49,520 nt of DNA, from the IMG/VR virus record IMGVR_UViG_3300045120_000487, positions 1 to 49,520 of that record; one strand, given 5' to 3'. The position numbers and the translations under genes are program-made. The notes under the pieces were generated by a model. The model did no database searches, had not been told where the DNA came from, and was given only the letters and a program-made list of their open reading frames with translations. Positions 16,512 to 49,520 of this stretch are shown piece after piece; positions within the stretch are counted from its first letter, which is position 1; the number at the start of each line of letters is the position of its first letter. Origin of the DNA: a virus.

Positions 16512-16854
16512 CTATGTACTCCAACGGATGGGGTGGAGCCGGCAACGCCTCGACAGTCAGACCGGCTTTGGCCATGTTCTCGAACAGCCGGCTGAGCTTG
16601 TCGAGTCCGGTATCGGTCTGTTGCTCCGGGACTTTACCTTCTGCCCGCTCCCATAGCCACTGAAGCGTCTTGGTGTCCGAGATCTCGATGGTGAACTTGT
16701 GGCTGCACCGGGGGCAGGACAGGGGTCTCTCGGTCTTGAAGCCAGACTCGAGTAGCTCGTCCACGATACGGGGCAGGTTGTCCCGGATCTTGTCGATCGC
16801 CTGCGTGCCTTTGCGAGAGAGCGCGACCTTCTTGGTCGGCCTGCCCATCACCAT
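16465..16854 (-). CDS. terS: Putative terminase small subunit with CxxC zinc-finger motif
   Basis: This 129-aa protein immediately precedes terL. The N-terminus GRPTKKVALSRKG and the helix following it resemble DNA-binding small terminases. Unusually, residues about 46-60 carry LSCPRCSHKFTIEI, a half zinc ribbon. The C-terminus is Pro/Glu-rich and could contact TerL. It begins in a TGATG junction with the 1581-aa gene. Small terminases bind the packaging start site. The assignment rests on position and size more than on sequence. Confidence 0.75.
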   Translation of the reverse strand: MVMGRPTKKVALSRKGTQAIDKIRDNLPRIVDELLESGFKTERPLSCPRCSHKFTIEISDTKTLQWLWERAEGKVPEQQTDTGLDKLSRLFENMAKAGLTVEALPAPPHPLEYIDASTGPESDGEEESP

Positions 16855-19800
16855 CAGGCTGCGTCCTGGCCTTGCATCAGGCGTTGCAGCCGGCCCTGCA
16901 TGTAGCTCTCCCAGGTCTTGCGCGCTGGAGCTTCCACGAACTCGCCCCGGCCAGGTGCCATGCGCTCCATGACCGCAATGATCTCTCTCATCTTCTGCTT
17001 GAAGTAGTCAGTATCCTGCTCAACCGTCTGTCCCTGCTCGCGTGGCACGCCCTCGCGCTTGAGCGTCGGCGTAGCCTTGACAGTACTGCGCGACTCGTCG
17101 GTCGGGTTGAGCAACTCGCCCGTGTCCGGGTCAATGCGCTTCTCGACCGGGACATCCATCTTCGATAGCAACCGGGTCGCGCGCTCGATGCGCCTCCGGG
17201 TGGCCTCGATCTGCTTGCGGACGTCTTCTTCTGAGAACGCTACCCGGCGCTTGACTCGCCGGCCTTCGCTGTCCTCGATGGGCTCGCCGGTCTTCTTGTC
17301 GTAGACGTCCTTGAAGTAGCCGTGCTCCTTGCTCGCGTTGCCGAGATCTATCAGGTACTTCCGGTCGGCTTCGCGCCGGCGCGTTAGCTCCCGATACTCG
17401 AAGGCATCCTGGCTCTCGTTCGGGTCAGGGCGCTTGGGTGCCTGCGAGTAGCTACGCTCGTCGTCTTCTCCGCCGGCGTACGAGGGCTTGTCTGGGTCTG
17501 TCTCGTGGGCATCGCCCCGGTAGTCGCTGGCGATATTGGCGATCTCTTCGTCAGTCGCATCTTCGGACAGGGTCCGGGAGTCTTCTTCCGCGTAGCCTGA
17601 TAGTTCGTCGTCACGCTTGGCTGCTTCGCTCTTGTTGACCTTGGGTCGACGCCGGACAGCCACGTTGTGTTCCATGTTGTCCGGGTTAGCCCAGGTGGCC
17701 ATCTCCTGGGCTTTCTTCCAGATCATGGCCTTGGCCAGGTCCCGCTCGGACTTGCCGACGTTCTTGCCAGCAGCCGTCAGAATGTCTCGGGCAATCTTCC
17801 GCAGAAAGTCCTGGCCGTACGGAGTGTTCTCCCAGCCTGCTACGTCGGTATCCGGACGAGCCCACTTGTCGTAGGCAGGCCCGTAGCCGTCCTTGTACTT
17901 GCCCTCTTTGTCCGCCACGCGGCTGACCAGAGACGGGAAGGACTCGTGCAGGATGGCGTCCTTGGTTTCACCCTCCCAGCGCATGGTCATGGGCTCGCCA
18001 GTGTCGGGGTCGATGCGGGGCTTCGGCTTACCGTACTTGTCGTACTTGGCTGTCTCGGCCCGGATCATGTTGTCCAGGACTTCTTGATACCAGTGTGACT
18101 TCCTGGCATCGCCCCCGACCCGGGCCAGTTCTTCCGTGGCCAACTGGATAGCTCGTGCCCGGGTGACCCGGCGGTAGCGCTGGCCCTCCAGGCTCTTCGC
18201 GGTGTCCCCTGCCTTGCCTGTGCCGATGTGCGCCTCTGACTCAGCCCTGAAGCCAGGCATGGCCCCGACAGCACCCTTGACCGCCCCGACAGGTCCTATC
18301 TGGGGAGGGCCTTCACGCCCGCCTTCCTGGATATCGAAGGGTGCCAGCTGGCGCACCATGCCCCGGCGAAGGGGCGAGCGTGTGTCGTCCCCCTCTGCCC
18401 TCATCGGCTCGTCCAGGTACTCGTCGGCGGTCAACGGCTCGAAGCCCTGCTGCGTCGTGGGAACACGAGTGTCTGGCTCACCAGGCTTGGGAGGCTCCCC
18501 TTCGAGGAAGATGTCCCCCTGCGGCATCCCGGACTCGTAGTCCATCACTTGCGCCAGGAGCTTCTGGGCATAGATCGAGTCTTCCGGGTCAAGGTCCATG
18601 AACTGGCTGGACGGGGGAAGATTCTCTCGAGGACCTCCACCCCGGACACTTAGTCGAGCCCAGTTGGGCCCCATTGGCTCTTCGCTAGTCGAGATGTTCG
18701 GTGGCGGACTCCCCGCTGCCTTGGGAGGCGTTGTCGAGCCAGTGGCCAGACTCGGGTCCTCCCAGTCGTACTCCGGGGGGAACTCATTCGGGTACATGGG
18801 TTCGGCTACATAGCCGCTGGGTTTGGAGACGGGTGGCCCGTTGTTGCCCGGCTTGTCCATCCACGCGGTGTCGATCCACGACTGCCTGTTCTTGGCCTCT
18901 GTCTTGCGCTGCTCGGCCTGCCACTTGGCATCTAGCGGATCACGGCGCGCGACCTTCTTTGTCTCCACCTTGGGATTACCCAGCACGCGGCCCATCTCGT
19001 TGTAGATAGGACGGGCGTCGGGGCCAGCTGACGGGCCAAGGTATTCGTAGTGAACCTGGATACCGGGGCCGTTCTTGGCCAGGTTCTTGCCGGCCTCGAC
19101 ACTCCAGCCCTCGGCTTTGGACCAGGCTTCAAGCTCGTCTGGGCTGGCTTTGGACAGGTCGATCGGGTTCTTGCCAGTGACCCGGAGACGGATGCGCTCG
19201 CCCCTGGCACCGGTGACCTCGACCACGTCGCCGGGCTCGGTGTTGATCCAGTTCTGTGCACCCTGGTGCTGCGGCCACCGGGTGGTGCTGGTCCGTTCGC
19301 CCTTGGTAATCGCCTCGAGCGTCGTCTTCGAGGTCACGCCCGGGCGCTGCTTGCCGTTGTACGGGAATGACATGGCCGACCGGAACTTGTGCGGACGCCC
19401 GTCGTCTGGGGCAATACCCGGCTTATCGGGCTGGTCGAGCAACGGCAAGTCGTCTGTGACAGGCACCGGCTCCTGGCCCAGCGGGGACTTGTGTGCATCT
19501 GGCCACCGGGCCTGGGCCTGCTCGGCAGTCAGGCCCTCCTGATCAATGATGTCGCCTTGCTCGGTGGTGTACCCGCGTGGGTCCCAGTTGTCCTCGTCGC
19601 CCAGGTGTGCCTCGACGTCCTGCTTGGAGATCAGGTCTTCGTTGGCGTAGTCAGGTGACCTGGGATCTTCGATGCTGGCAGGCGTCTTCTGGGCGTTATC
19701 GAAAGCGACCTTGGCCTTGGCCCACTGATTGGCCTGGGTGATCTCGTCCCTGCTCAGGTCCTGGTAGGACCGACCAGCAAAGGGATTAGGGCCAGGATCA

Positions 19801-21599
19801 GTCCCCGGTTGCACCACCATGCCGGGCGAGACCTCTGTGCCAGTGGGAGTATCGAACGGTTTCCAAGGCGCTGCGACTGGCTTGCCGTAATCGGCCATGC
19901 CCTCGTCGGTAACCGGCTCCATAGCCTGAGCCGTGTAGCCCTTCGGAGGCGTTACAGGGGTACCGTCAAAGCCCTGGAGATCCTTGGGATCGACGTAGTA
20001 ACGCCCCGGCTTGTAGTCGGCGTACTTGACGCCTTTGACTTGCTCGTAGATCTTGGTCTTGTTCGGGCCCGCTTCCAGCCAGCGGTAGTAGGACTTGGCC
20101 GGCAATGGCCGGTTGATGTCCCCGAACTTGGAAGAGAACGAGTTCCTGTCGACGTGCTCGGGCAATAGCTCGACGTAGTCCCCGGCCTCGCCATGAATGA
20201 CCCGGCTGTAGCCCCTGCCGATGACTGTCCCGTCTTTGAGCATGACCGGCTGATTGCCTACGGGGTAGCCGTTCTCGCCAGCGTTGGAGAAGCTCGTGGG
20301 GCCAGGGGCAGGCCTGCCAGTGGGCGGAGGCGCAGCACCGGGAGTCTCCGCCGGGGCCACGCCTCCTGTCTCGTCCGTCAGACCCACGAACTTCTTCATG
20401 CGGGCCATGACTGCCGGGTCACCCAGGTCGAAGACCTTGACGCCCTGTGCTCGAGCCAACCGGATGGCCTGTCCTGTACCGCCCCCGCCTTTGCCACCAG
20501 GCGTCCAGGCCAGCACGAAGTCTGACGGTGAGTTCAGGTCCTGGCCCAGCACCTGGTGAGAGTTCCGGGCGTGCAGCTTGCGCGCACCCTGGGTCACCGC
20601 TCCCCAGTTGGGATGGTGCTGGGCTGCCAGGTCCATCGCTTCTTTCGACGGGTTCGGGATATAGCCAGACCCGGTCCGGCCCTCGTAGCCACCCCACGGG
20701 AGGTAGATCTCGTGATTGCCGCCTGCGCCTGCTTCGAACGCTGAGTCCGCTCCCTTGGCTGCCCCCGACCTGAGCGTGAAGCCCTGTTCGTTGAGCTTGG
20801 ACGCAATCTGCGTCATGATCCCCTGGATCTCCGGAGGCGTCTCTCGAGATCCGATGCCGGTATAGAACTTCTTCTTGCCTGCTGTATTGGCATACGCGAC
20901 AGACGGCGGAGAGATGCGATCCATGGTCTCCAAGCCGGTATCGAGTGCGGCGGTACCGGCTTTCTTGGCCAGCGGGATCGCATGCCCAACGTTCTGGACT
21001 CCGAGACCGGCTACTGCCCCCAGGGCTGCCCGCCCTGGATCTATTTCACCGGTCTCGGGATCTCGTCCAGCAAGCTCAGCGCCCTGGACTGCGCCGAGCC
21101 CCTGGTTCATGGCCTCGATCCCGACCTTGGCCGGGCGGGCAAGCCGGGCTGCGGGGCCCAGCGCTTCTAGGACTTTGCCAGCCGCAGCTGGCGTATACGT
21201 GACCGGGTCTAACGCCGTGCCAGCGGCGAAGCCGGCCAGTGTACGGGGCGTGATATTGACCGGCCCGGCCTGGAACAAGGACTGGTCAGGGATCCGGTTC
21301 ATCCCTGGCAGCTCAGTGGCATCGACGTGCCGCTGGCCAGTGAGGCCCTCACCAGCTGCGCGCACGACGTCTGGATGAGACAGGAGCCAGGGCAGGGCTC
21401 CAGACGGATTAGCTGCACCAAGGAGTCCCAGGTACCCGCCGGGCCCCTGGTCTACATCCTGTCCAGCCTGGACTGCCCCGGCCCTGATCGCGTTGCCTGG
21501 TCTCCCGACAATGTCTGCGATGCCCATGCCGGCATCCAGCGGGGAGAAGAGCTTGGCTCTCTCCATCGCCTGACGGGCCAGGTCTAGAAGCTCAGGCAT
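16854..21599 (-). CDS. Polyvalent virion protein with SLOG and ASCH domains (1581 aa)
   Basis: This is the first and longest gene of the late block. Residues 1-235 are Ala/Gly/Pro-rich and contain AGTALDPVTYT, which resembles the 844-aa internal protein. Residues about 245-405 match the phage SLOG (DprA/YspA-like Rossmann) family: FYTGIGSRETPPE, then TLRSGAAKGADSAFE. Residues about 735-850 resemble an ASCH domain (FRSAMSFPYNGKQRPGV, TTRWPQH, PGDVVEVTG). The last 450 residues are charged and helical. Proteins stitching several such domains are known as polyvalent proteins and are thought to enter the cell with the DNA and counter host defences. Delivery here is inference. No clear Shine-Dalgarno precedes the ATG. 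Confidence 0.82.
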   Translation of the reverse strand: MPELLDLARQAMERAKLFSPLDAGMGIADIVGRPGNAIRAGAVQAGQDVDQGPGGYLGLLGAANPSGALPWLLSHPDVVRAAGEGLTGQRHVDATELPGMNRIPDQSLFQAGPVNITPRTLAGFAAGTALDPVTYTPAAAGKVLEALGPAARLARPAKVGIEAMNQGLGAVQGAELAGRDPETGEIDPGRAALGAVAGLGVQNVGHAIPLAKKAGTAALDTGLETMDRISPPSVAYANTAGKKKFYTGIGSRETPPEIQGIMTQIASKLNEQGFTLRSGAAKGADSAFEAGAGGNHEIYLPWGGYEGRTGSGYIPNPSKEAMDLAAQHHPNWGAVTQGARKLHARNSHQVLGQDLNSPSDFVLAWTPGGKGGGGTGQAIRLARAQGVKVFDLGDPAVMARMKKFVGLTDETGGVAPAETPGAAPPPTGRPAPGPTSFSNAGENGYPVGNQPVMLKDGTVIGRGYSRVIHGEAGDYVELLPEHVDRNSFSSKFGDINRPLPAKSYYRWLEAGPNKTKIYEQVKGVKYADYKPGRYYVDPKDLQGFDGTPVTPPKGYTAQAMEPVTDEGMADYGKPVAAPWKPFDTPTGTEVSPGMVVQPGTDPGPNPFAGRSYQDLSRDEITQANQWAKAKVAFDNAQKTPASIEDPRSPDYANEDLISKQDVEAHLGDEDNWDPRGYTTEQGDIIDQEGLTAEQAQARWPDAHKSPLGQEPVPVTDDLPLLDQPDKPGIAPDDGRPHKFRSAMSFPYNGKQRPGVTSKTTLEAITKGERTSTTRWPQHQGAQNWINTEPGDVVEVTGARGERIRLRVTGKNPIDLSKASPDELEAWSKAEGWSVEAGKNLAKNGPGIQVHYEYLGPSAGPDARPIYNEMGRVLGNPKVETKKVARRDPLDAKWQAEQRKTEAKNRQSWIDTAWMDKPGNNGPPVSKPSGYVAEPMYPNEFPPEYDWEDPSLATGSTTPPKAAGSPPPNISTSEEPMGPNWARLSVRGGGPRENLPPSSQFMDLDPEDSIYAQKLLAQVMDYESGMPQGDIFLEGEPPKPGEPDTRVPTTQQGFEPLTADEYLDEPMRAEGDDTRSPLRRGMVRQLAPFDIQEGGREGPPQIGPVGAVKGAVGAMPGFRAESEAHIGTGKAGDTAKSLEGQRYRRVTRARAIQLATEELARVGGDARKSHWYQEVLDNMIRAETAKYDKYGKPKPRIDPDTGEPMTMRWEGETKDAILHESFPSLVSRVADKEGKYKDGYGPAYDKWARPDTDVAGWENTPYGQDFLRKIARDILTAAGKNVGKSERDLAKAMIWKKAQEMATWANPDNMEHNVAVRRRPKVNKSEAAKRDDELSGYAEEDSRTLSEDATDEEIANIASDYRGDAHETDPDKPSYAGGEDDERSYSQAPKRPDPNESQDAFEYRELTRRREADRKYLIDLGNASKEHGYFKDVYDKKTGEPIEDSEGRRVKRRVAFSEEDVRKQIEATRRRIERATRLLSKMDVPVEKRIDPDTGELLNPTDESRSTVKATPTLKREGVPREQGQTVEQDTDYFKQKMREIIAVMERMAPGRGEFVEAPARKTWESYMQGRLQRLMQGQDAA

Positions 21600-21634: not shown

Positions 21635-21753
21635 ACATCCGTGACTCACAGTACACGATGCATGGCTACCTGTGAACTGTGATAGGCGGTAGGTACCAGA
21701 AGACACAGAGGCACAACACTCTTTGCTTTCCGGAGGCCTACTGAGTACTAGGA

Positions 21754-21764
21754 TACTCGCTAGG
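21754..21764. repeat. TACTCGCTAGG direct repeat, copy 1
   Basis: This 11-bp sequence recurs exactly at 21970-21980 in the same intergenic region. Copy 1 also forms an imperfect palindrome with the adjacent GAGTA at 21743-21747. It may be an operator or a promoter -10 segment. Confidence 0.5.
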
Positions 21765-21887: not shown

Positions 21888-21969
21888 CCTGCCCTCTTCC
21901 CCAAAGTACTGAACCCGACCTCGAGCCTGTCAAGTCTCGAATGCGTCACAGAAATTACCGTGCACTGGG

Positions 21970-21980
21970 TACTCGCTAGG
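21970..21980. repeat. TACTCGCTAGG direct repeat, copy 2
   Basis: This is the second exact copy of the 11-bp sequence found at 21754, lying 38 bp before the first early start codon. Here it runs into TAGTAG, and the GCTAG core also occurs before the polymerase gene (24437-24441 region). It may overlap the early promoter. Confidence 0.45.
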
Positions 21981-30441: not shown

Positions 30442-31473
30442 GTGAGCACCTGGCTGGGGATCTTCTTCGCCAGCTGCTTCGGCATCGCTGTGATGCTGGG
30501 CATGATCGCCCGGGGGGTTGTCTCGCCGGTCCCGGCTCCCCTGCCGCCTGTGTCTGTCGTGATCACGGCCACGCCGGTGCCCCTGGTACTGGAGATCACG
30601 ATCACGAAAGGAGACGGGGAGGGGGAGGCAGTAGTCGCTATCGGGGAAGTCAGCGCTACGCCCATCCCGGGGGACACGCCAGAACCGACTCCGGTGCCAG
30701 TCGTCATCGCTATTAGCGGGAGCGAAAAGAGCGATCTGGAGATCGAGATTCAGGAACCTGCTGAGCAAGCAGTCCCGGAAGATACCCCTGTGCCAGCGCC
30801 GGTCGTGCGTGTAACCGTTGTGATACCGGCGACTCTTCGTCCAAGTCCGCCAACGAGTACGCCAACGCCCGCCACTGTGGCGGACGAGGACTTGCCGGTA
30901 CTGCCCACGTCCGGTGAAGCGCCTACTGCCACCCCATCTGTGCGAGGGTCAGATGAAGAGCCTGCTGCATCAGCTACTCCTGGACCAGAGCATGGAGACC
31001 CGGGACCGGTACCGACTGACGTCCCTGGCCCTGCAACACCAACCCGTGTACCTGAGTCCCCACCGGCACCAGGTGCTGTCCCTGCCCCTGCGACTCAGAC
31101 TCCTGTACAGCCGGGGCCTGTTGCTCCTGTACCTTCGGCTACTTCAGGCCAGGTACCGGTGCCTCCGACTAGTACACCTGAACGTGTTCCACCCACCCTG
31201 GTTGTTGTGAGTACTGCCACGCCGGTCCCGGCCACGGCCACTCCCATCCCCGGCGAGGGCGTGACTCCAGTACCAAACACCCCGGTACCGACCACCCTTC
31301 CAACCCCTCGGCCTCCCACAGACACCCCGGTACCCCCGCCAATCACAGGCCGACCTCCGCCGCTGCCGACACTGCCCCCGGTGCGCGACATCGCACGGAC
31401 GGCGATAGCTACCAAGTTTCCGCTGCCGACACTCAAGCCCATCTTCCCCAATCGGACGCCGGGTCCCGGGTGA
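30442..31473 (+). CDS. Membrane-anchored Thr/Pro/Val-rich surface protein (343 aa)
   Basis: A GTG start opens a protein with one N-terminal membrane helix (WLGIFFASCFGIAVMLGMIA, residues about 4-23) and then about 315 residues dominated by Pro, Thr, Val and Ala in units such as ATPVPATATPIPGEG and TPVPTTLPTPRPP. There are no cysteines after the anchor. Such extended sequence can cross a thick cell wall. Similar TPTP linkers are common in Chloroflexota and also in actinobacterial wall proteins. It directly precedes a holin-like gene, so a lysis or wall-spanning role is possible. The frame is certain, the function is not. Confidence 0.75.
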   Translation: MSTWLGIFFASCFGIAVMLGMIARGVVSPVPAPLPPVSVVITATPVPLVLEITITKGDGEGEAVVAIGEVSATPIPGDTPEPTPVPVVIAISGSEKSDLEIEIQEPAEQAVPEDTPVPAPVVRVTVVIPATLRPSPPTSTPTPATVADEDLPVLPTSGEAPTATPSVRGSDEEPAASATPGPEHGDPGPVPTDVPGPATPTRVPESPPAPGAVPAPATQTPVQPGPVAPVPSATSGQVPVPPTSTPERVPPTLVVVSTATPVPATATPIPGEGVTPVPNTPVPTTLPTPRPPTDTPVPPPITGRPPPLPTLPPVRDIARTAIATKFPLPTLKPIFPNRTPGPG

Positions 31474-31476
31474 CGA

Positions 31477-31704
31477 GTGGAGACGTACGCAGTTGACGGT
31501 ACGTCTCTGGCAGCAGTGGGCGGGATCCTCGGGGCCCTGACCGGGCTGATCACCTGGCTGCTTCGAATGCTCTTGCGCTCAAAGGACCAGCAGATCAAGA
31601 AGGCTCAGGACGAGACCGAGCACATGGAGCACGACCGGGACTACTGGCGGGACAGGACCCTGCGCCTCATGAGCGATTCTTCCAGAGACTCTTCGCGGCT
31701 CTGA
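31477..31704 (+). CDS. Single-span holin-like or spanin-like membrane protein (75 aa)
   Basis: The GTG at 31477 lies 3 bp after the surface-protein stop. Residues about 11-32 form one membrane helix (AAVGGILGALTGLITWLL), followed by a basic-to-acidic coiled coil (KDQQIKKAQDETEHMEHDRD). This topology is shared by small class III holins and by inner-membrane spanin-like proteins. Its 3' end overlaps a convergent minus-strand gene by 38 bp. Together with the upstream surface protein it could form an envelope module. Confidence 0.7.
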   Translation: METYAVDGTSLAAVGGILGALTGLITWLLRMLLRSKDQQIKKAQDETEHMEHDRDYWRDRTLRLMSDSSRDSSRL

Positions 31705-31873
31705 CGAGTTCCTTGTGGCACTCGAGACAGGGCTGGGTGCCGTAGTGCCCGAACTCGTAGACCGGCAAGAGCAGGGAGCACATATCGCATCTCTTGACGG
31801 CGTGTAGCTCGACCTGTCGCTCATAGACCCGATCGCGTTCCGTGAAGCTCAGGGGCAAGGGCTGGTACTCCAT
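31667..31873 (-). CDS. Minus-strand zinc-finger micro-protein (68 aa)
   Basis: This is one of two leftward genes embedded in the rightward block. It contains KRCDMCSLLLPVYEFG and TQPCLECHKEL, a CxxC-x13-CxxC zinc-finger pattern seen in small phage proteins and in HNH-associated modules, though no HNH residues follow. It starts with ATG 7 bp after the upstream 65-aa gene. Opposite orientation suggests separate control. No conflicting plus-strand gene covers most of it. Confidence 0.6.
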   Translation of the reverse strand: MEYQPLPLSFTERDRVYERQVELHAVKRCDMCSLLLPVYEFGHYGTQPCLECHKELVRAAKSLWKNRS

Positions 31874-31880
31874 GGGCTAC

Positions 31881-32078
31881 TCACCGGTCATGATGCTCCC
31901 TGAGTAGGGCCAGGATCCGGTTCGACATGGCCACGTAGGCTATCAGGCTCTGCATCCCGGCCTGGGTGTTCAGGATCTCGTCCATGATCTGGGAGTCGAG
32001 CTTGGTCATGGATCCGGGCTTCCGTCCTGCGCCTGGTCTCTTCCCGCCCCTGTTTGATTTCCCCGGTTTATCAATCAC
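31881..32078 (-). CDS. Minus-strand basic protein with RPGAGRKPG motif (65 aa)
   Basis: The N-terminus GGKRPGAGRKPGS is a motif common at the start of small phage DNA-binding and terminase-like proteins. A helical segment with AGMQSLIAYVAMSNRILALL follows. The GTG start has no obvious ribosome site, and the true start may differ. An inverted repeat, CAATCA at 32072-32077 and TGATTG at 32085-32090, covers the start and could be an operator. It may be a small regulator of this leftward pair. Confidence 0.55.
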   Translation of the reverse strand: MIDKPGKSNRGGKRPGAGRKPGSMTKLDSQIMDEILNTQAGMQSLIAYVAMSNRILALLREHHDR

Positions 32079-32312
32079 AGGAACTGATTGTATTCAGACG
32101 CGGGGACAGGTAACCCCTCCAGACCCCTATCCGGTTTTTAGCTAGACAGCGTAGGCATCCCACCCACCCCCCATTATTCACGCAATACACCCCCCATATA
32201 CCCCACCCCATACCCCTGTCACATAGACCCTGCCTGGCACTCGGTCTCCGGCTACACTCGAGGGCTGCTACGGGTACGGGGGCTTTGACTGGCTGGCTCA
32301 CGGCTTAGTGCT
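32079..32312. promoter_or_regulatory. Intergenic control region before the cassette block
   Basis: No gene is seen here. It separates the leftward pair from the first rightward cassette. A TACACT hexamer preceded by GGC (about 32248-32256) could be an extended -10 element, and the same hexamer recurs before the AAA+ ATPase gene (about 35334). The stretch 32157-32217 is strikingly C/A-rich on this strand. Promoter placement is tentative. Confidence 0.4.
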
Positions 32313-32362
32313 CGGGCTGTACCGAGGACGGAGATCTACCGGCTCCGCCGGGGTGGGGCGTT
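32313..32362 (+). ncRNA. Structured leader element, copy A
   Basis: This is copy A of a three-copy leader with the core CGGGC(T/G)GT-N7-ACGGAGA-NN-TAC. A stem-loop with a constant TCC loop follows: CCGGC (32339-32343) pairs with GCCGG (32347-32351). CGGAG (32329-32333) can instead pair with CTCCG (32343-32347), which would exclude the first stem. The start codon of the 160-aa gene follows directly. The arms differ between copies but stay paired, which supports an RNA structure. Confidence 0.72.
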
Positions 32363-32845
32363 ATGGTCTTCATTCCTTTCACGAAGCTTGCCGACGAGCC
32401 GCAGGTTTCCATCACCATCGTTGAGGACGGCATCGAGCGCACCGTTCTTGGATTCACGTATCGCTGTGACGGCATCACTGCTCACGGCATGCCCTGTCGT
32501 CTGGTCTGGGATCGGGCGTGGCTGGCCAAGGAGTGCGTTGCTCATGGCCACAAGTCGTCATGGACCACTCAGCAGTACGGCAAGGACGGTGCTGTGTATC
32601 AGCGCACAGCTCTTCGCCGCTGGGGTTCTGATACCCCTGTAGCCCCTGCTGCTCCGGTGGCTGTGGCAGCGCAGGCAACTGCCGTCTCACTGCCCATTGA
32701 TCCTGAAGCCCAGCTTCGGGCACTGGCTGCGGCCATGGGGTTCCGGGTCTCCCGGATCCCCAAGGCCAAAGCCCCTGCGTCAAAGCCCTCTGAGCCTGCG
32801 GGCTTAGAGGACATTGACGAGCTTTTCACAGGGTCTCCGTTCTGA
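32363..32845 (+). CDS. Cassette A protein with CxnC motif (160 aa)
   Basis: The ATG comes right after leader copy A. The N-terminal 80 residues form a compact domain with FTYRCDGITAHGMPCRLVW and ECVAHGHKSSW, whose Cys/His residues could bind zinc. An Ala/Val/Pro linker and a helical C-terminus ending DELFTGSPF follow. A UUCG-loop hairpin comes 5 bp after the stop, so it looks like a one-gene transcription unit. No family is recognised. Confidence 0.72.
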   Translation: MVFIPFTKLADEPQVSITIVEDGIERTVLGFTYRCDGITAHGMPCRLVWDRAWLAKECVAHGHKSSWTTQQYGKDGAVYQRTALRRWGSDTPVAPAAPVAVAAQATAVSLPIDPEAQLRALAAAMGFRVSRIPKAKAPASKPSEPAGLEDIDELFTGSPF

Positions 32846-32850
32846 CCTTC

Positions 32851-32868
32851 AGGGGCCTTCGGGCCCCT
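32851..32868 (+). terminator. UUCG-loop hairpin after cassette A
   Basis: AGGGGCC (32851-32857) and GGCCCCT (32862-32868) form a perfect stem closed by a TTCG tetraloop just after the stop codon at 32845. Only TTC follows, not a T-run, so it may be a weak terminator or a 3' stabilising structure. A similar hairpin follows cassette B. Confidence 0.6.
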
Positions 32869-33159
32869 TCAGGCCAGTTAAGCATTGAGGCATTGAGGCA
32901 GGGTTTCATTGAACCCTTGATCACAGAAGAGCCTGAGTGAGCTTGCGAACGGCTACAGGTACCTTGTTCTCAGGCTTACAGGCTCTCTGAGCCAGCACAC
33001 GACCACATCAATCTCACCCTCACTCATTCTCCTCTTCTATACACACAACACCACGCCCCCGCGATGCCCTACTAAGCGGGCCGTTACACGGACTTTTACG
33101 TGGTCATTAGCGACTCGGTTTCATAGTCAACGAGGGGTTCGTGGCCTCCGGCGAGCGTG
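32869..33159. other. Non-coding, hairpin-rich spacer before cassette B
   Basis: No convincing gene is seen on either strand in this spacer. It carries a tandem GCATTGAGGCATTGAGGC (about 32882-32899) and an 8-bp inverted repeat, AGCCTGAG (32930-32937) with CTCAGGCT (32969-32976). A short stem, GGCTC-TCT-GAGCC, lies at 32981-32993. A TATACA hexamer at 33038-33043 is a possible -10 element without a good -35. The density of inverted repeats suggests a long structured leader or a small RNA. Confidence 0.45.
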
Positions 33160-33208
33160 CGGGCTGTTTACCCAACGGAGAGCTACCGCCTCCGGCGGGT
33201 TGGGCGTC
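33160..33208 (+). ncRNA. Structured leader element, copy B
   Basis: The core CGGGCTGT-N7-ACGGAGA-GC-TAC spans 33160-33186. CCGCC (33186-33190) pairs with GGCGG (33194-33198) around a TCC loop. The alternative pair is CGGAG (33176-33180) with CTCCG (33190-33194). In this copy CCCAAC (33171-33176) can also pair with GTTGGG (33199-33204), extending the first fold. The ATG of the 69-aa gene follows at 33209. Confidence 0.72.
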
Positions 33209-33418
33209 ATGCTTGATATCGCTCACGAGCACCCACGTACCGTCTCCGACACCTATGACCACGAGGGCGACTGTGGCTGCACTTGCTGCCTCAGTGGCTG
33301 TGACCATGACTTCCAGTTCATCTTCGAGCCTTGCTTTGAAGACCATGACTACGACGTCACGCCCCAGCCTTGCCCTTGTGGCCTCATTCACCCAGACCTT
33401 GAGGACCTCCCCTTCTAG
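33209..33418 (+). CDS. Cysteine-rich acidic micro-protein (69 aa)
   Basis: I chose the ATG directly after leader copy B. A TTG 9 nt upstream is in frame but lies inside the hairpin. The protein has eight cysteines in GDCGCTCCLSGCDHDF, FEPCF and QPCPCGLIH, many Asp/Glu and His residues, and no membrane segment. It looks like a metal-binding (zinc) micro-domain. No family is recognised. Confidence 0.68.
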   Translation: MLDIAHEHPRTVSDTYDHEGDCGCTCCLSGCDHDFQFIFEPCFEDHDYDVTPQPCPCGLIHPDLEDLPF

Positions 33419-33440
33419 GGGACGGTCCTTCTCGGCGGTT

Positions 33441-33458
33441 AAGGCCAGGGAGGGCCTT
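33441..33458 (+). promoter_or_regulatory. Shine-Dalgarno displayed in a hairpin loop
   Basis: AAGGCC (33441-33446) and GGCCTT (33453-33458) form a perfect stem whose 6-nt loop is AGGGAG, the ribosome site for the ATG at 33462. The same design occurs before the gene at 34083. Confidence 0.55.
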
Positions 33459-33461
33459 GCC

Positions 33462-33686
33462 ATGCTCACAGCACTTGTCTGCTACCTCGGCAGCCTGATC
33501 ACGCTGTTCATCGATACCTCGGTTCACCTCGTCATCCACGCCGCGCAGTGGCTCACCATCCGCCGCGTCTTCAAGTACGGCATCTGCACCTTCTGCGGCT
33601 ACGAGGCGCAGTGCAAGCTCGAAGACCTCATCCTCGACGCCAAGCTCGACTTCGACTTCGACGTCACCCACAGGTACCCCTTCTGA
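33462..33686 (+). CDS. Small protein with hydrophobic N-terminus and CxxC motif (74 aa)
   Basis: Translation probably starts at the ATG 3 nt after the ribosome-site hairpin. Residues 3-30 are hydrophobic (LTALVCYLGSLITLFI), a possible membrane or amphipathic helix. Residues about 46-56 hold GICTFCGYEAQC, a zinc-finger half. The C-terminus is acidic, with repeated Leu/Asp/Phe (KLDFDFDVTHRYPF). The combination suggests a small membrane-linked zinc protein of unknown function. Confidence 0.68.
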   Translation: MLTALVCYLGSLITLFIDTSVHLVIHAAQWLTIRRVFKYGICTFCGYEAQCKLEDLILDAKLDFDFDVTHRYPF

Positions 33687-33689
33687 CCC

Positions 33690-34034
33690 ATGGACTTCAC
33701 CGACCTCTCCAACTCAGACCTGTTGCTGGCACTCATCAGTGCCAACCACAGCGCCATTCGCGGCGACCTCATGCTCAACGCCATCGAGGACGCCATGGAC
33801 CACGCTGACGGCCTCGCTGTCGCGCCGCCCTGGACACCACCAACCGAGTGCCCTGCCTGCCACAAGCCGTGGCACCTCGCCACGCCCACGGGCTTCACCA
33901 ACGGCCCCCAGTTCTCGGGCATGAGCCTCAGGGAACTCCAGGAACAGCACAGCAACTACCGCCACTCAGGCTTTGACGAGTACGCAGCCAGAATCGAGCA
34001 CGAGTGCTTCACACGCGGCCTCACCCTGCCCTAG
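33690..34034 (+). CDS. Cassette B protein with CxxC motif (114 aa)
   Basis: It lies 3 bp after the preceding gene and before a UUCG hairpin, so it ends the cassette B unit. The N-terminal helix is acidic (MDFTDLSNSDLLLALISANH). The middle has TECPACHKPWHL, a CxxC with nearby His, and the C-terminus has a charged helix with HECFTRG. A zinc-stabilised helical protein is likely. No family is recognised. Confidence 0.7.
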   Translation: MDFTDLSNSDLLLALISANHSAIRGDLMLNAIEDAMDHADGLAVAPPWTPPTECPACHKPWHLATPTGFTNGPQFSGMSLRELQEQHSNYRHSGFDEYAARIEHECFTRGLTLP

Positions 34035-34048
34035 GCCCTTCGGGGCCT
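34033..34048 (+). terminator. UUCG-loop hairpin after cassette B
   Basis: AGGCCC (34033-34038) and GGGCCT (34043-34048) pair perfectly around TTCG, overlapping the stop codon at 34032-34034. As after cassette A, a TTTAAGC stretch follows, not a T-run. It is probably a weak terminator or mRNA-end stabiliser. Confidence 0.55.
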
Positions 34049-34060
34049 CTATGGGCATTT

Positions 34061-34079
34061 AAGCCTCAAGGAGGGGCTT
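34061..34079 (+). promoter_or_regulatory. Second Shine-Dalgarno in a hairpin loop
   Basis: AAGCC (34061-34065) pairs with GGCTT (34075-34079). The 9-nt loop holds AAGGAGG, placed for a TTG start at 34083. It mirrors the hairpin at 33441-33458 in layout, loop content and 3-nt distance to the start. Confidence 0.5.
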
Positions 34080-34082
34080 GCA

Positions 34083-34196
34083 TTGATCCACCACGCCCTC
34101 GCGGCCTGCACCGCACGTTGGCCATGGAGCCACAAGACCAAGCGCTGGGAGCGCGTCAATTGCTACGCCTGTCATCGAGCCCGCAAGGGCTCATGA
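34083..34196 (+). CDS. Zinc-finger micro-protein (37 aa) with TTG start
   Basis: The frame opens at TTG after the ribosome-site hairpin and ends in ATGA coupling to the next gene, which supports it despite its length. The peptide is basic and Trp/His-rich (ACTARWPWSHKTKRW) and ends NCYACHRARKGS, one CxxC pair. The other ligands may be Cys9 and a His. No function can be assigned. Confidence 0.5.
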   Translation: MIHHALAACTARWPWSHKTKRWERVNCYACHRARKGS

Positions 34197-34444
34197 TCAC
34201 GCTCATCCTCGCCCTCGCCATGCTCGTCCAGAGCATGGTCTACGAGGACGGGTCCACGGTTCTGGGCGGCTGCCTCCCGGCACAGCCCTGCGCCGACGAC
34301 CGAGACATTGTCTGGACGCAGACCTTGCAGGCCTGGTCCGATCCCACCGACTACCAGGAAGCTCTGTACGTCACCGTTCCAGACGGGACCTGTGGCGTTG
34401 AGCTATCCGGCCTGGTACTCAAACTCATACTCTGCGAGATCTGA
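34193..34444 (+). CDS. Small secreted or membrane-anchored protein (83 aa)
   Basis: The ATG at 34193 overlaps the micro-protein stop. Residues 1-15 (MITLILALAMLVQSM) are a hydrophobic signal-like helix without positive charge. The rest is acidic with four Cys in two regions (GGCLPAQPCADD and DGTCGVEL plus LILCEI), suggesting disulfides outside the membrane. It could act at the cell envelope. No family is recognised. Confidence 0.65.
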   Translation: MITLILALAMLVQSMVYEDGSTVLGGCLPAQPCADDRDIVWTQTLQAWSDPTDYQEALYVTVPDGTCGVELSGLVLKLILCEI

Positions 34445-34446
34445 CC

Positions 34447-34617
34447 ATGACCGTACGGGAACTCATCCAGCAGCTGCGCGAGATGCCTCCGGACGCCCTT
34501 GTCCTCATCGACATGGACGAGGACGAGACCACTGGCCAACTCGCGCACAGCTACGTTCACCACGTCCAGCACGACATGCCATTGGCCGTGACCATCTATC
34601 ACGACGAGGCTCCATGA
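34447..34617 (+). CDS. Small phage protein of the MTVRELIQQL type (56 aa)
   Basis: It begins MTVRELIQQLREMPPDALVL and continues with an acidic IDMDEDETTG turn and beta strands. That layout, a short helix then beta hairpins, is one I recall in many short uncharacterised phage proteins. It starts 2 bp after the previous stop and is followed by leader copy C. Function is unknown. Confidence 0.65.
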   Translation: MTVRELIQQLREMPPDALVLIDMDEDETTGQLAHSYVHHVQHDMPLAVTIYHDEAP

Positions 34618-34650
34618 GGCCCAATGGCGTCGTGGGTCCCGTCTAGCTCG

Positions 34651-34696
34651 CGGGCGGTTTGGGCGACGGAGAGTTACGCCCTCCGGGCGTGGGAGT
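34651..34696 (+). ncRNA. Structured leader element, copy C
   Basis: The core CGGGCGGT-N7-ACGGAGA-GT-TAC spans 34651-34677. ACGCCC (34676-34681) pairs with GGGCGT (34685-34690), a perfect 6-bp stem with the constant TCC loop. The alternative CGGAG (34667-34671) with CTCCG (34681-34685) is also kept. Unlike copies A and B, the next start codon is about 100 nt downstream, with its own AAGGAG. It heads the OB-AAA+-VWA operon. Confidence 0.72.
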
Positions 34697-34797
34697 GGAT
34701 CAAGGGGGTCGTGAGCAGAACGGGTTCAGAAAGGCTCATGCACGTAATCGGGTCCCCCTTGGCCCAACGCGCACTCATATCAAACAAGGAGTTCATT

Positions 34798-35307
34798 GTG
34801 GCAACGACCACGATCACCACAGTCTCAGGGATTGTCGAACAATCCAACACCAACGGCTTCAAGCTCCAGAATCGCCCTCAGTGGCTGAACTACTCCAAGT
34901 TCGGCTACCAGGGCCCAACCGCAGGGCAGCCCGCACCACAGGTGGGCCAGGTCATCGAAGCACAGGTCAAGCAGGACAAGTTCCTGCACGCACTCAGCAT
35001 CAACGGCGTCGCTCCGGCTCAGATCGCCACCCAGACGCCTGCACCCACGAACACCACGCCCCCGGCGCAGAGCATCACGCCTGCACAGCCCTTCGCCCTG
35101 AGCAGCCTCGCTCAACTGACCATCGAGGCCAGGCAGACGCTGCTCAAAACTGTGGCAGTTGCTCAGCCCAATCTCTTCGTCATGGACCAGATGGAGATGC
35201 TCATCGAAGTCATCCGGAACCTCGAAGAGTTCGTCCTCGAGCCTGCCATGGCCCCCAAAGAAGAAGAGATCACCGAGGACGATCTCCTGGACGAAGAGGA
35301 CATCTAA
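34798..35307 (+). CDS. OB-fold-like protein, putative ssDNA-binding (169 aa)
   Basis: I chose the GTG at 34798 because AAGGAG lies 7 nt upstream. Longer frames read through the leader. Residues 1-75 look like a small beta barrel (TITTVSGIVEQSNTNGFKLQ, then VGQVIEAQVKQDKFLHAL), as in OB-fold domains. A Thr/Pro/Gln linker, a helix and an acidic tail (EEEITEDDLLDEEDI) follow. An acidic tip after a flexible linker is the layout of phage SSBs, where it recruits replication partners. The assignment is inferred from layout only. Confidence 0.7.
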   Translation: MATTTITTVSGIVEQSNTNGFKLQNRPQWLNYSKFGYQGPTAGQPAPQVGQVIEAQVKQDKFLHALSINGVAPAQIATQTPAPTNTTPPAQSITPAQPFALSSLAQLTIEARQTLLKTVAVAQPNLFVMDQMEMLIEVIRNLEEFVLEPAMAPKEEEITEDDLLDEEDI

Positions 35308-35413
35308 AACTACCCAACCCGGAGCCTTGCAGCGTACACTGGGACCCGCAATCCCTACCTACCCAGTACCCAGAGTCTCATTTCACTTTCAACGAGGGTT
35401 CACATCAACCACG

Positions 35414-36850
35414 ATGCCTACCAGCTTCGTACTCAACGCGGAACGGGTCTTTGAGAACGTTCCCGTAACCAGCACGCTCAGGGGCTTTGCCGTCCCGTTT
35501 CCGGCCATTCTGCGGATTCAGGCCACCAGCGGCAAACCCAACCCCAAAGACAAGGAGTGGGATGGCCGGTCCGCCTCGCTCTCATTCAACCGCACGGTCA
35601 AGACTCACTATCTGGCCAAGATCCTTCACAAGCCAGTAGGCAAGGCTGGCTTCACGCGCTCCTTTCTCTCAGTCCAGGAAGTCGATATCCCCACCTGGAA
35701 CAGAGCCCGTGACGAGTGGGCCACATTCCTTATCAACAACGCTGAGGACTTCACCAGCACACACGCCACGGTCATCGAGAACCTGCGCGGTCGCGTTCCT
35801 CGCTCAGTGCTCACGGGAGCACGCCCCGGCTCAGCTGGCAACACGGTCAGCAACACCCAGGGCGCAAATGTACCCAATCCTCCAGCAACTGCTCCAGTTC
35901 CCACTCCAGTAGCAGTCGCGGTTCAGAACGTCACGGCTCCGACCTGGGATCCAGACGACCTGGACATTGCCCATGATCTCTTTGAGGTCCCCATGGACAA
36001 TCCCAACTTCATGCCGGATCGAGAGACCTTCGAGATCCTCGATGCAGCTTGGAAGCGTGCCATCGCCATCAACGGCCCGGTCATGGTCCTGATCTATGGC
36101 GACACCAGCACCGGCAAGACAGAGCATCCCATCATCTGGGCTGCACGCAACGGCCAGCTGCACTGTCGCATCGACTGCGGTGCCTTCGGTGAGATCTACG
36201 ACGTCACCGGACCCATCAAGGCCAAGGAATCCAACGGTGTCAGTGTCACCGAGTGGATCAAGGGCAAGACCATCAGAGCCATGGCTGATCCACGCCCCGC
36301 TGTCATTCAGCTGGATGAGGTCAACCGGATCTCCGACGTCAAGGCCATGAACATCCTGTTCCCGTTCTTCGACATCGCTCGCAAGAGCTACTTCGATGAC
36401 AACCAGACATGGATGCATCTCCAGGGCGCAAAGGTCATCGTTTCCACTATGAACGGTGACACCCGTGGCGACGACATTGGTGAATACGTCGGCACTCAAC
36501 CACTGGACCAGGCCTTTATCTCACGCTTCCCGATCAGACGCCAGTTGCGTTACCCCGACGCTACCAAGCTGGCTCAGATCCTCACTGCCCGCAGCAACGG
36601 CACGATCGGTCAGCCATTGATCGACACCGTGGCTCAGATCGCTGTAGAGCTTGTTGCCTTGAACAAGTTCGTGCCCAACCTCCGGGAACTGTTTGCAGCC
36701 CTGGACTTCCTGGCAGACGGCAAGGATCTGTTTCACGCCCTCAAATGGACCGTGGGCGGCATCTACAAGGATGACGGCACATCCGGCAGCGACTACATCA
36801 GCTTCAAAGCAGTGCTCAACGGCAAGGGCATCAACACGGATGAATCCTGA
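35414..36850 (+). CDS. MoxR/CobS-type AAA+ ATPase (478 aa)
   Basis: I chose the ATG at 35414. The upstream frame is unrelated sequence. Residues 1-200 form an N-terminal domain with no clear match. The AAA+ core has Walker A YGDTSTGKTE near 228-237, Walker B AVIQLDEVNRISD near 296, sensor 1 VIVSTMNGD near 343, and the arginine-finger region FISRFPIRRQ near 368. The gene pairs with a VWA protein two genes down, as MoxR/CobS ATPases usually do. These ATPases remodel or insert metal into target proteins together with the VWA partner. The stop overlaps the next start by 11 bp. Confidence 0.88.
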   Translation: MPTSFVLNAERVFENVPVTSTLRGFAVPFPAILRIQATSGKPNPKDKEWDGRSASLSFNRTVKTHYLAKILHKPVGKAGFTRSFLSVQEVDIPTWNRARDEWATFLINNAEDFTSTHATVIENLRGRVPRSVLTGARPGSAGNTVSNTQGANVPNPPATAPVPTPVAVAVQNVTAPTWDPDDLDIAHDLFEVPMDNPNFMPDRETFEILDAAWKRAIAINGPVMVLIYGDTSTGKTEHPIIWAARNGQLHCRIDCGAFGEIYDVTGPIKAKESNGVSVTEWIKGKTIRAMADPRPAVIQLDEVNRISDVKAMNILFPFFDIARKSYFDDNQTWMHLQGAKVIVSTMNGDTRGDDIGEYVGTQPLDQAFISRFPIRRQLRYPDATKLAQILTARSNGTIGQPLIDTVAQIAVELVALNKFVPNLRELFAALDFLADGKDLFHALKWTVGGIYKDDGTSGSDYISFKAVLNGKGINTDES

Positions 36851-49329: not shown

Positions 49330-49520
49330 GATCTTTCTTTGAGACCGGTCCGTCTACTTCCGGGACTGGTGGAGACTGGGCATTCAGGATGTCATCAGTG
49401 AACTGGATGAGTCTCCGGTCAATAACACCCCAGTGCATGGCCTTGGTCTTCTCGACCAGGTGCTCCCAGTCCTTGTCTTCTAACAAGAGAATCCCGCCCT
49501 TGGCTGCGTCCAGGGCATCG
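49316..49520 (-). CDS. C-terminal part of the late hypothetical protein split by the contig joint
   Basis: This is the continuation of the gene that starts at 276. The TGA stop is at 49316-49318, and 49394-49520 repeats the sequence of 1-127. Only 26 codons (49316-49393, including the stop) are new. The C-terminus is acidic and Pro/Val-rich, ending VPEVDGPVSKKDLARA. It overlaps the following gene by 14 bp. Confidence 0.8.
   Translation of the reverse strand, partial: DALDAAKGGILLLEDKDWEHLVEKTKAMHWGVIDRRLIQFTDDILNAQSPPVPEVDGPVSKKDLARA
49394..49520. repeat. Terminal direct repeat, right copy
   Basis: These 127 bases are identical to 1-127. They show that the contig closes into a circle of 49,393 bp. 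The round length of 127 is a typical assembly k-mer, so it is most likely an overlap artefact. Confidence 0.95.

Follow-up and report, generated by a model that had tools for sequence, protein, structure and literature searches.

The element considered here belongs to a virus record of 49,520 bases (IMGVR_UViG_3300045120_000487 of the IMG/VR database; 62% G+C), and this whole stretch is called the window. As the record has identical ends of 127 bases (1–127 and 49394–49520), it probably represents an entire genome, about 49.4 kb in length. Its structural genes (capsid, terminase, and tail) are on the minus strand, and its replication genes (helicase, DNA polymerase A, and primase) are on the plus strand from 22 kb. 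Further along the plus strand, a sequence of about 50 bases is found three times within 2.4 kb, each time outside the called genes, in an intergenic gap. The open reading frames (ORFs) that follow the three copies are here named genes A, B, and C, the last of which is followed by a gene for an AAA+ protein and another for a VWA-domain protein (Table 1). An automatic ORF call on the minus strand, over gene B, was judged spurious in favor of the plus-strand ORF whose start lies next to copy 2.

The three copies conform without mismatch to the consensus CGGGC(T/G)GT-N7-ACGGAGA-NN-TAC, all on the plus strand and with identical spacing, exactly as described in the original prediction, which a model had made from the DNA letters. 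The number of matches was still three when up to three mismatches were allowed on both strands, with 0.05 expected from shuffles. A covariance model built from the three copies was scored with its filters off at every window position; the copies reached 73–79 bits, and the next-best score was 9.5 bits (E-value 0.7). Because of this gap, it can be stated that there is no fourth copy in the window, not even a degenerate or decayed one. Copies 1 and 2 are alike all the way to the ATG of the following gene, and the two stretches upstream of the ATG differ in length by one base.

Table 1. Window positions of the parts of the three copies and of the genes that follow them.
Feature	Composition	Positions	Strand	Remarks
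Copy 1, linear block	CGGGCTGT-N7-ACGGAGA-TC-TAC	32313–32339	+	
Copy 1, palindrome	CGGAG-N9-CTCCG	32329–32347	+	fold A or candidate DNA operator
Copy 1, hairpin B	CCGGC TCC GCCGG	32339–32351	+	ends 11 nucleotides before ATG 32363
Gene A	160 amino acids; Cys/His cluster, acidic tail ...DIDELFTGSPF	32363–32845	+	no family, no relative
Copy 2, linear block	CGGGCTGT-N7-ACGGAGA-GC-TAC	33160–33186	+	
Copy 2, palindrome	CGGAG-N9-CTCCG	33176–33194	+	fold A or candidate DNA operator
Copy 2, hairpin B	CCGCC TCC GGCGG	33186–33198	+	ends 10 nucleotides before ATG 33209
Gene B	69 amino acids; Cys/His-rich	33209–33418	+	
Copy 3, linear block	CGGGCGGT-N7-ACGGAGA-GT-TAC	34651–34677	+	
Copy 3, palindrome	CGGAG-N9-CTCCG	34667–34685	+	fold A or candidate DNA operator
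Copy 3, hairpin B	ACGCCC TCC GGGCGT	34676–34690	+	extra sixth A-T pair
Gene C	169 amino acids	34798–35307	+	start GTG 34798, AAGGAG 6 nucleotides upstream
AAA+ gene	CobS/MoxR-like	35414–36850	+	downstream of gene C
VWA-domain gene	PF00092	37054–39840	+	downstream of AAA+ gene

The most informative part of the element is a stem-loop, here called hairpin B, in which a stem of five base pairs closes a TCC loop. In a single ungapped register all 15 cells of the stem (five pairs in three copies) are paired although the arms differ, as had been claimed. From the outermost pair inwards, copies 1, 2, and 3 have C-G throughout, then C-G, C-G, and G-C, then G-C, G-C, and C-G, then G-C, C-G, and C-G, and finally C-G throughout; that is, three of the five pairs carry changes in both arms, and every pair is intact. 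Sliding the register by one to three columns leaves zero or one doubly changed pair. When the alignment columns were permuted and every stem with loops of 3–12 nucleotides was searched, a stem of five or more base pairs with three double changes was reached in a fraction of 0.0011–0.0024 of the shuffles; for an alignment of three sequences, the built-in shuffle of the covariation tool can go no lower than the value it gave (14/500). Perfect triloop hairpins of five base pairs occur 89 times per strand; TCC is the loop in four of those on the plus strand, and the present copies account for three of these four. All this suggests that stem B is maintained as a structure. The original prediction had spoken of strong evidence for a functional RNA, and the three compensations (p about 0.001–0.0024) argue for it, but good rather than overwhelming is the fairer description: as paralogues within a single genome, the copies represent at most three independent events, so that the covariation support comes from three related copies and not from independent genomes. 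No stem common to the copies was found in the upstream part of the element, where the CTCGG/CCGAG pairing of copy 1 has no equivalent in copies 2 and 3.

These observations also bear on another explanation, namely that intergenic DNA was duplicated, has no present function, and forms a hairpin as a by-product of its G+C-rich sequence. Three copies in 2.4 kb of one genome with 62% G+C, ordinary folding energies, and downstream genes A, B, and C that are all unknown ORFs would suit this explanation. It accounts poorly, however, for the exact register in which invariant and highly variable blocks alternate, and for three compensations with no broken pair, and we consider it quite unlikely.

The element also contains a second possible pairing. 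The words CGGAG and CTCCG, both invariant in the three copies, can pair with each other (fold A), as had been foreseen; since CTCCG contains the loop of hairpin B and its closing pair, folds A and B are mutually exclusive. The invariance of both words means that covariation speaks neither for nor against fold A. Covariation in both folds, as expected of a two-fold switch, was not found, with three covarying pairs in B and none in A. In folding predictions, the isolated copies 1 and 2 (52 nucleotides) adopt fold A with a probability of at least 0.999, and in copy 2 fold A is predicted to outweigh B in every sequence context tried. Taken over most contexts, fold A is thus the dominant prediction for copies 1 and 2, but not for copy 3.

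The same invariant palindrome would serve a dimeric DNA-binding protein equally well. The main rival explanation is, in this sense, that the element is an operator or promoter-proximal site in double-stranded DNA, where a phage repressor or activator dimer would bind CGGAG-N9-CTCCG and the CGGGCKGT block and would thus co-regulate three transcription units. Invariant half-sites around a variable spacer are the expected trace of such a dimer, and the copies are located in long intergenic gaps, after hairpins resembling transcript ends (32848–32875 and 34033–34047). Moreover, in cluster K mycobacteriophages the ESAS repeats, also placed near starts, hold SigA-like promoter hexamers (PMC11373665). 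Nonetheless, the compensations in stem B are not expected of an operator, and no sigma-70-like promoter was detected in 31400–35400, by a scan that actinobacterial or phage-specific promoters would escape. Taking both sides together, an operator seems somewhat unlikely.

As regards the genes downstream, the claim that two copies abut start codons stands for copies 1 and 2, while the statement that one copy heads the AAA+/VWA operon is, for copy 3, a purely positional one, with gene C and a gap of 106 nucleotides between gene C and the AAA+ gene intervening. The putative regulon draws on the placement of the copies and on three unknown ORFs. No protein family matches gene A, B, or C, genes A and C have no phage relatives by tblastn against phages, and single-sequence structure models of their products were too poor for use (mean predicted local distance difference test score of 45 for gene A and 42 for gene C). 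The AAA+ and VWA genes form a pair, and neither protein has a close relative in IMG/VR. Other in-frame starts are available for gene C (GTG 34711, about 20 nucleotides past the stem of copy 3, and ATG 34624) and for gene B (TTG 33200). The sequence TTTCA-NNN-TCAACGAGGG(G)TTC is found twice, at 33119–33140 and 35381–35402 (0.02 expected), about 20 nucleotides before copy 2 and 12 nucleotides before the AAA+ start, and constitutes a putative second shared upstream motif.

Proximity to genes raises the question of whether the block is itself coding, or decayed coding. One frame reads S-x-R-A-V-x-x-T-E-x-Y-x-L-R in all copies, with nine conserved residues compared with four or five in the other frames, and the edges of the block fit codons. 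In copy 2 this gives a short ORF (33157–33213, starting with GTG 33157) whose stop overlaps the start of gene B. Copy 1, on the contrary, has no counterpart: its frame lacks a start codon (after TGA 32286 there is no ATG, GTG, or TTG) and a nearby stop. The one-base difference between copies 1 and 2 before the ATG also disagrees with coding, as do a codon-position bias of the variable sites that is not significant (5, 6, and 9 of 15; P 0.14), synonymous codons that are not enriched (P 0.22), and a best protein match no better than an E-value of 4. A coding origin was consequently rejected as unsupported, and we think it very improbable.

Searches for relatives of the element were made in several collections. 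IMG/VR does not contain the exact consensus. Looser patterns matched 3, 83, and 4 stretches there and 75 in 84,980 prokaryote genomes (each from a different species), numbers close to those expected by chance; no member of the set of four had a TCC-loop hairpin, and the other three sets retained no stretch as a homologue once they were re-scored for stem, TCC loop, and 5′ block. A blastn search of copy 2 against 50,697 phage records returned nothing significant, and Rfam gave no match at gathering score in the window, the sub-threshold matches being off the copies. Near relatives of the phage itself, sought in IMG/VR through the DNA polymerase, VWA, AAA+, and gene C proteins, were not found either. 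Tblastn in phages was made with the polymerase, capsid, AAA+, VWA, gene A, and gene C proteins. Both kinds of search gave distant matches (about 23–30% identity) or none, those of the DNA polymerase and the capsid in phages being distant only. Apparently, this is a phage without evident relatives.

Some neighboring features deserve mention in their own right. The hairpin after gene A (32840–32876) is 100% identical over 29 nucleotides, and 97% over 34, to a gene end in the Streptomyces phages Mildred21 and LilMartin, which are otherwise unrelated to this phage; the match hints that the host is an actinobacterium and that a terminator cassette is shared. Hairpins resembling GGCCCTTCGGGGCC and followed by the word TTAAG are found after two genes (32853–32890 and 34034–34071, 71% alike), and another combination of TTAAG and hairpin is present near 33437. 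Where the structural and replication genes diverge, GG(A/G)TACTCGCTAGG occurs twice (21751–21764 and 21967–21980), with a perfect 11-nucleotide inverted repeat between the two sites (21827–21837/21877–21887); together they are candidate operators or a candidate origin. Finally, a protein of 1581 amino acids (16854–21599) carries a DprA-like domain (PHROG 768, E-value 5e-59) at residues 242–410, its only assigned part.

The reading that we tentatively favor, short of calling it probable, is that of a phage-encoded, cis-acting 5′-leader RNA that stands before three early-region genes or operons and acts on translation initiation. Its starting point is the compensated hairpin of the three copies together with an invariant, complementary GGAG/CUCC pair, the whole ending 10–11 nucleotides before two ATGs. 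The element would be transcribed, and the purine block ACGGAGA would present GGAG to the ribosome. The GGAG is located at 32330–32333 in copy 1 and at 33177–33180 in copy 2, that is, 29 and 28 nucleotides before the respective ATG, and hairpin B would shorten this path to 16 and 15 nucleotides. In fold A, the CUCC within CTCCG would cover GGAG and initiation would be lowered; a protein or ligand may set the switch between the two folds. The invariance of linear blocks beyond GGAG suggests, in turn, that a factor of phage or host origin binds the element. Such an arrangement would resemble the split ribosome-binding sites of bacteriophage T4, in which a hairpin between a distant Shine-Dalgarno-like GGAG and the AUG shortens the interval from 27 to 11 nucleotides in gene 25 and from 22 to 5 in gene 38 (PMC3014915). 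Unlike these single sites, the present element is repeated and has invariant linear blocks, its third copy does not fit, and 15–16 nucleotides are left in the other two (6 if gene B starts at TTG 33200).

It is important to note that several results weigh against initiation control by such a leader. The residual spacing of 15–16 nucleotides exceeds both the T4 cases and the optimum. In copies 1 and 2 there are weak local Shine-Dalgarno candidates, and the scoring does not separate GGAG from them; in favor of the leader, GGAG pairs with the 16S ribosomal RNA tail (-6.6 to -6.7 kcal/mol) about as well as do the local G-rich stretches before the ATG (-5.5 to -6.5). Copy 3 lies about 107 nucleotides upstream of the best-supported start codon of gene C, which has an AAGGAG of its own. 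The preferred predicted fold varies among copies and contexts; for instance, copy 1 in a stretch of 68 nucleotides, with 8 nucleotides upstream and 60 downstream, is predicted to form neither A nor B, while copy 3 with long flanks is predicted to form B (probability 0.997). Compared with dinucleotide shuffles of the same leader, no leader has a higher predicted stability (z from -1.6 to +0.6), and homologues of the element are lacking in IMG/VR, the prokaryote genomes, GenBank phages, and Rfam. The switch that the original prediction had proposed amounts to a pairing possibility, given a fold A that never varies, preferences that differ by copy, and a stability like that of shuffles.

A repeated box with a hairpin also recalls the elements that modify RNA polymerase. 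The lambda nut site consists of boxA and a purine-rich boxB loop. Those of HK022, putL and putR, are RNAs of about 70 nucleotides with two stem-loops, downstream of the early promoters PL and PR (PMC9378689). Like them, the present copies would combine conserved letters and hairpins at the start of early transcripts, and could make the polymerase read through downstream terminators, with a phage protein (as for nut) or without one (as for put). A linear box and a variable-stem hairpin close to where each successive unit begins, and hairpins resembling transcript ends between the units, are what such antitermination would call for. On the other hand, there is one conserved hairpin rather than two, the upstream part has no common stem, the loop is TCC, the sequence matches neither put nor nut, Rfam has no match, and the ending of copies 1 and 2 so close to an ATG is more typical of translation. 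Antitermination is, on this balance, unlikely.

The nearest known kind of element is represented by the SAS and ESAS repeats of cluster K mycobacteriophages, which are start-associated, contain GGAG, and belong to the non-structural region (PMC3203893). The SAS is a 13-bp sequence, GGGATAGGAGCCC, with at most two deviations, located 3–7 nucleotides from the start in 11–19 copies, and the ESAS, which adds imperfect 17-bp inverted repeats with a 4–13 bp spacer, stands beside a SAS (PMC3203893). The arms of the ESAS show no support for RNA pairing and contain promoter hexamers (PMC3203893; PMC11373665). Both kinds share with the present element a phage-specific repetition in the non-structural part, mostly in one orientation, near the starts of unrelated genes, and with a GGAG core. 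However, by direct reading GGGATAGGAGCCC is in none of the three copies, the shared part being GGAG only. The distance to the start is larger and not constant (10–11 nucleotides for copies 1 and 2, and about 107 for copy 3, or about 20 for GTG 34711), the copy number is only three, and the inverted repeats are limited to 5-bp arms with a 9-nucleotide spacer and a covarying stem of 5–6 bp with a 3-nucleotide loop. Given these differences in sequence, copy number, and spacing, and the promoter hexamers in ESAS arms that do not pair as RNA, the element is not a member of the SAS/ESAS group.

On the favored reading, the three copies would represent a genome-specific, start-associated leader RNA, possibly bound by a protein. 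A bolder proposal, which we put forward as speculative and unlikely, is that of a new class of leader RNA, in which the GGAG box and the CUCC loop would form a built-in Shine-Dalgarno/anti-Shine-Dalgarno pair and a factor would switch several early operons together at initiation. Start-adjacent repeats of phages have been known since 2011 in the form of SAS and ESAS, whose function is not established and whose ESAS arms are unlike RNA stems; in the present phage, a hairpin that covaries between copies makes a hypothesis at the RNA level directly testable by swapping its arms. If control of initiation proved to be true, the element would provide the phage with a compact way to coordinate unlinked early operons.

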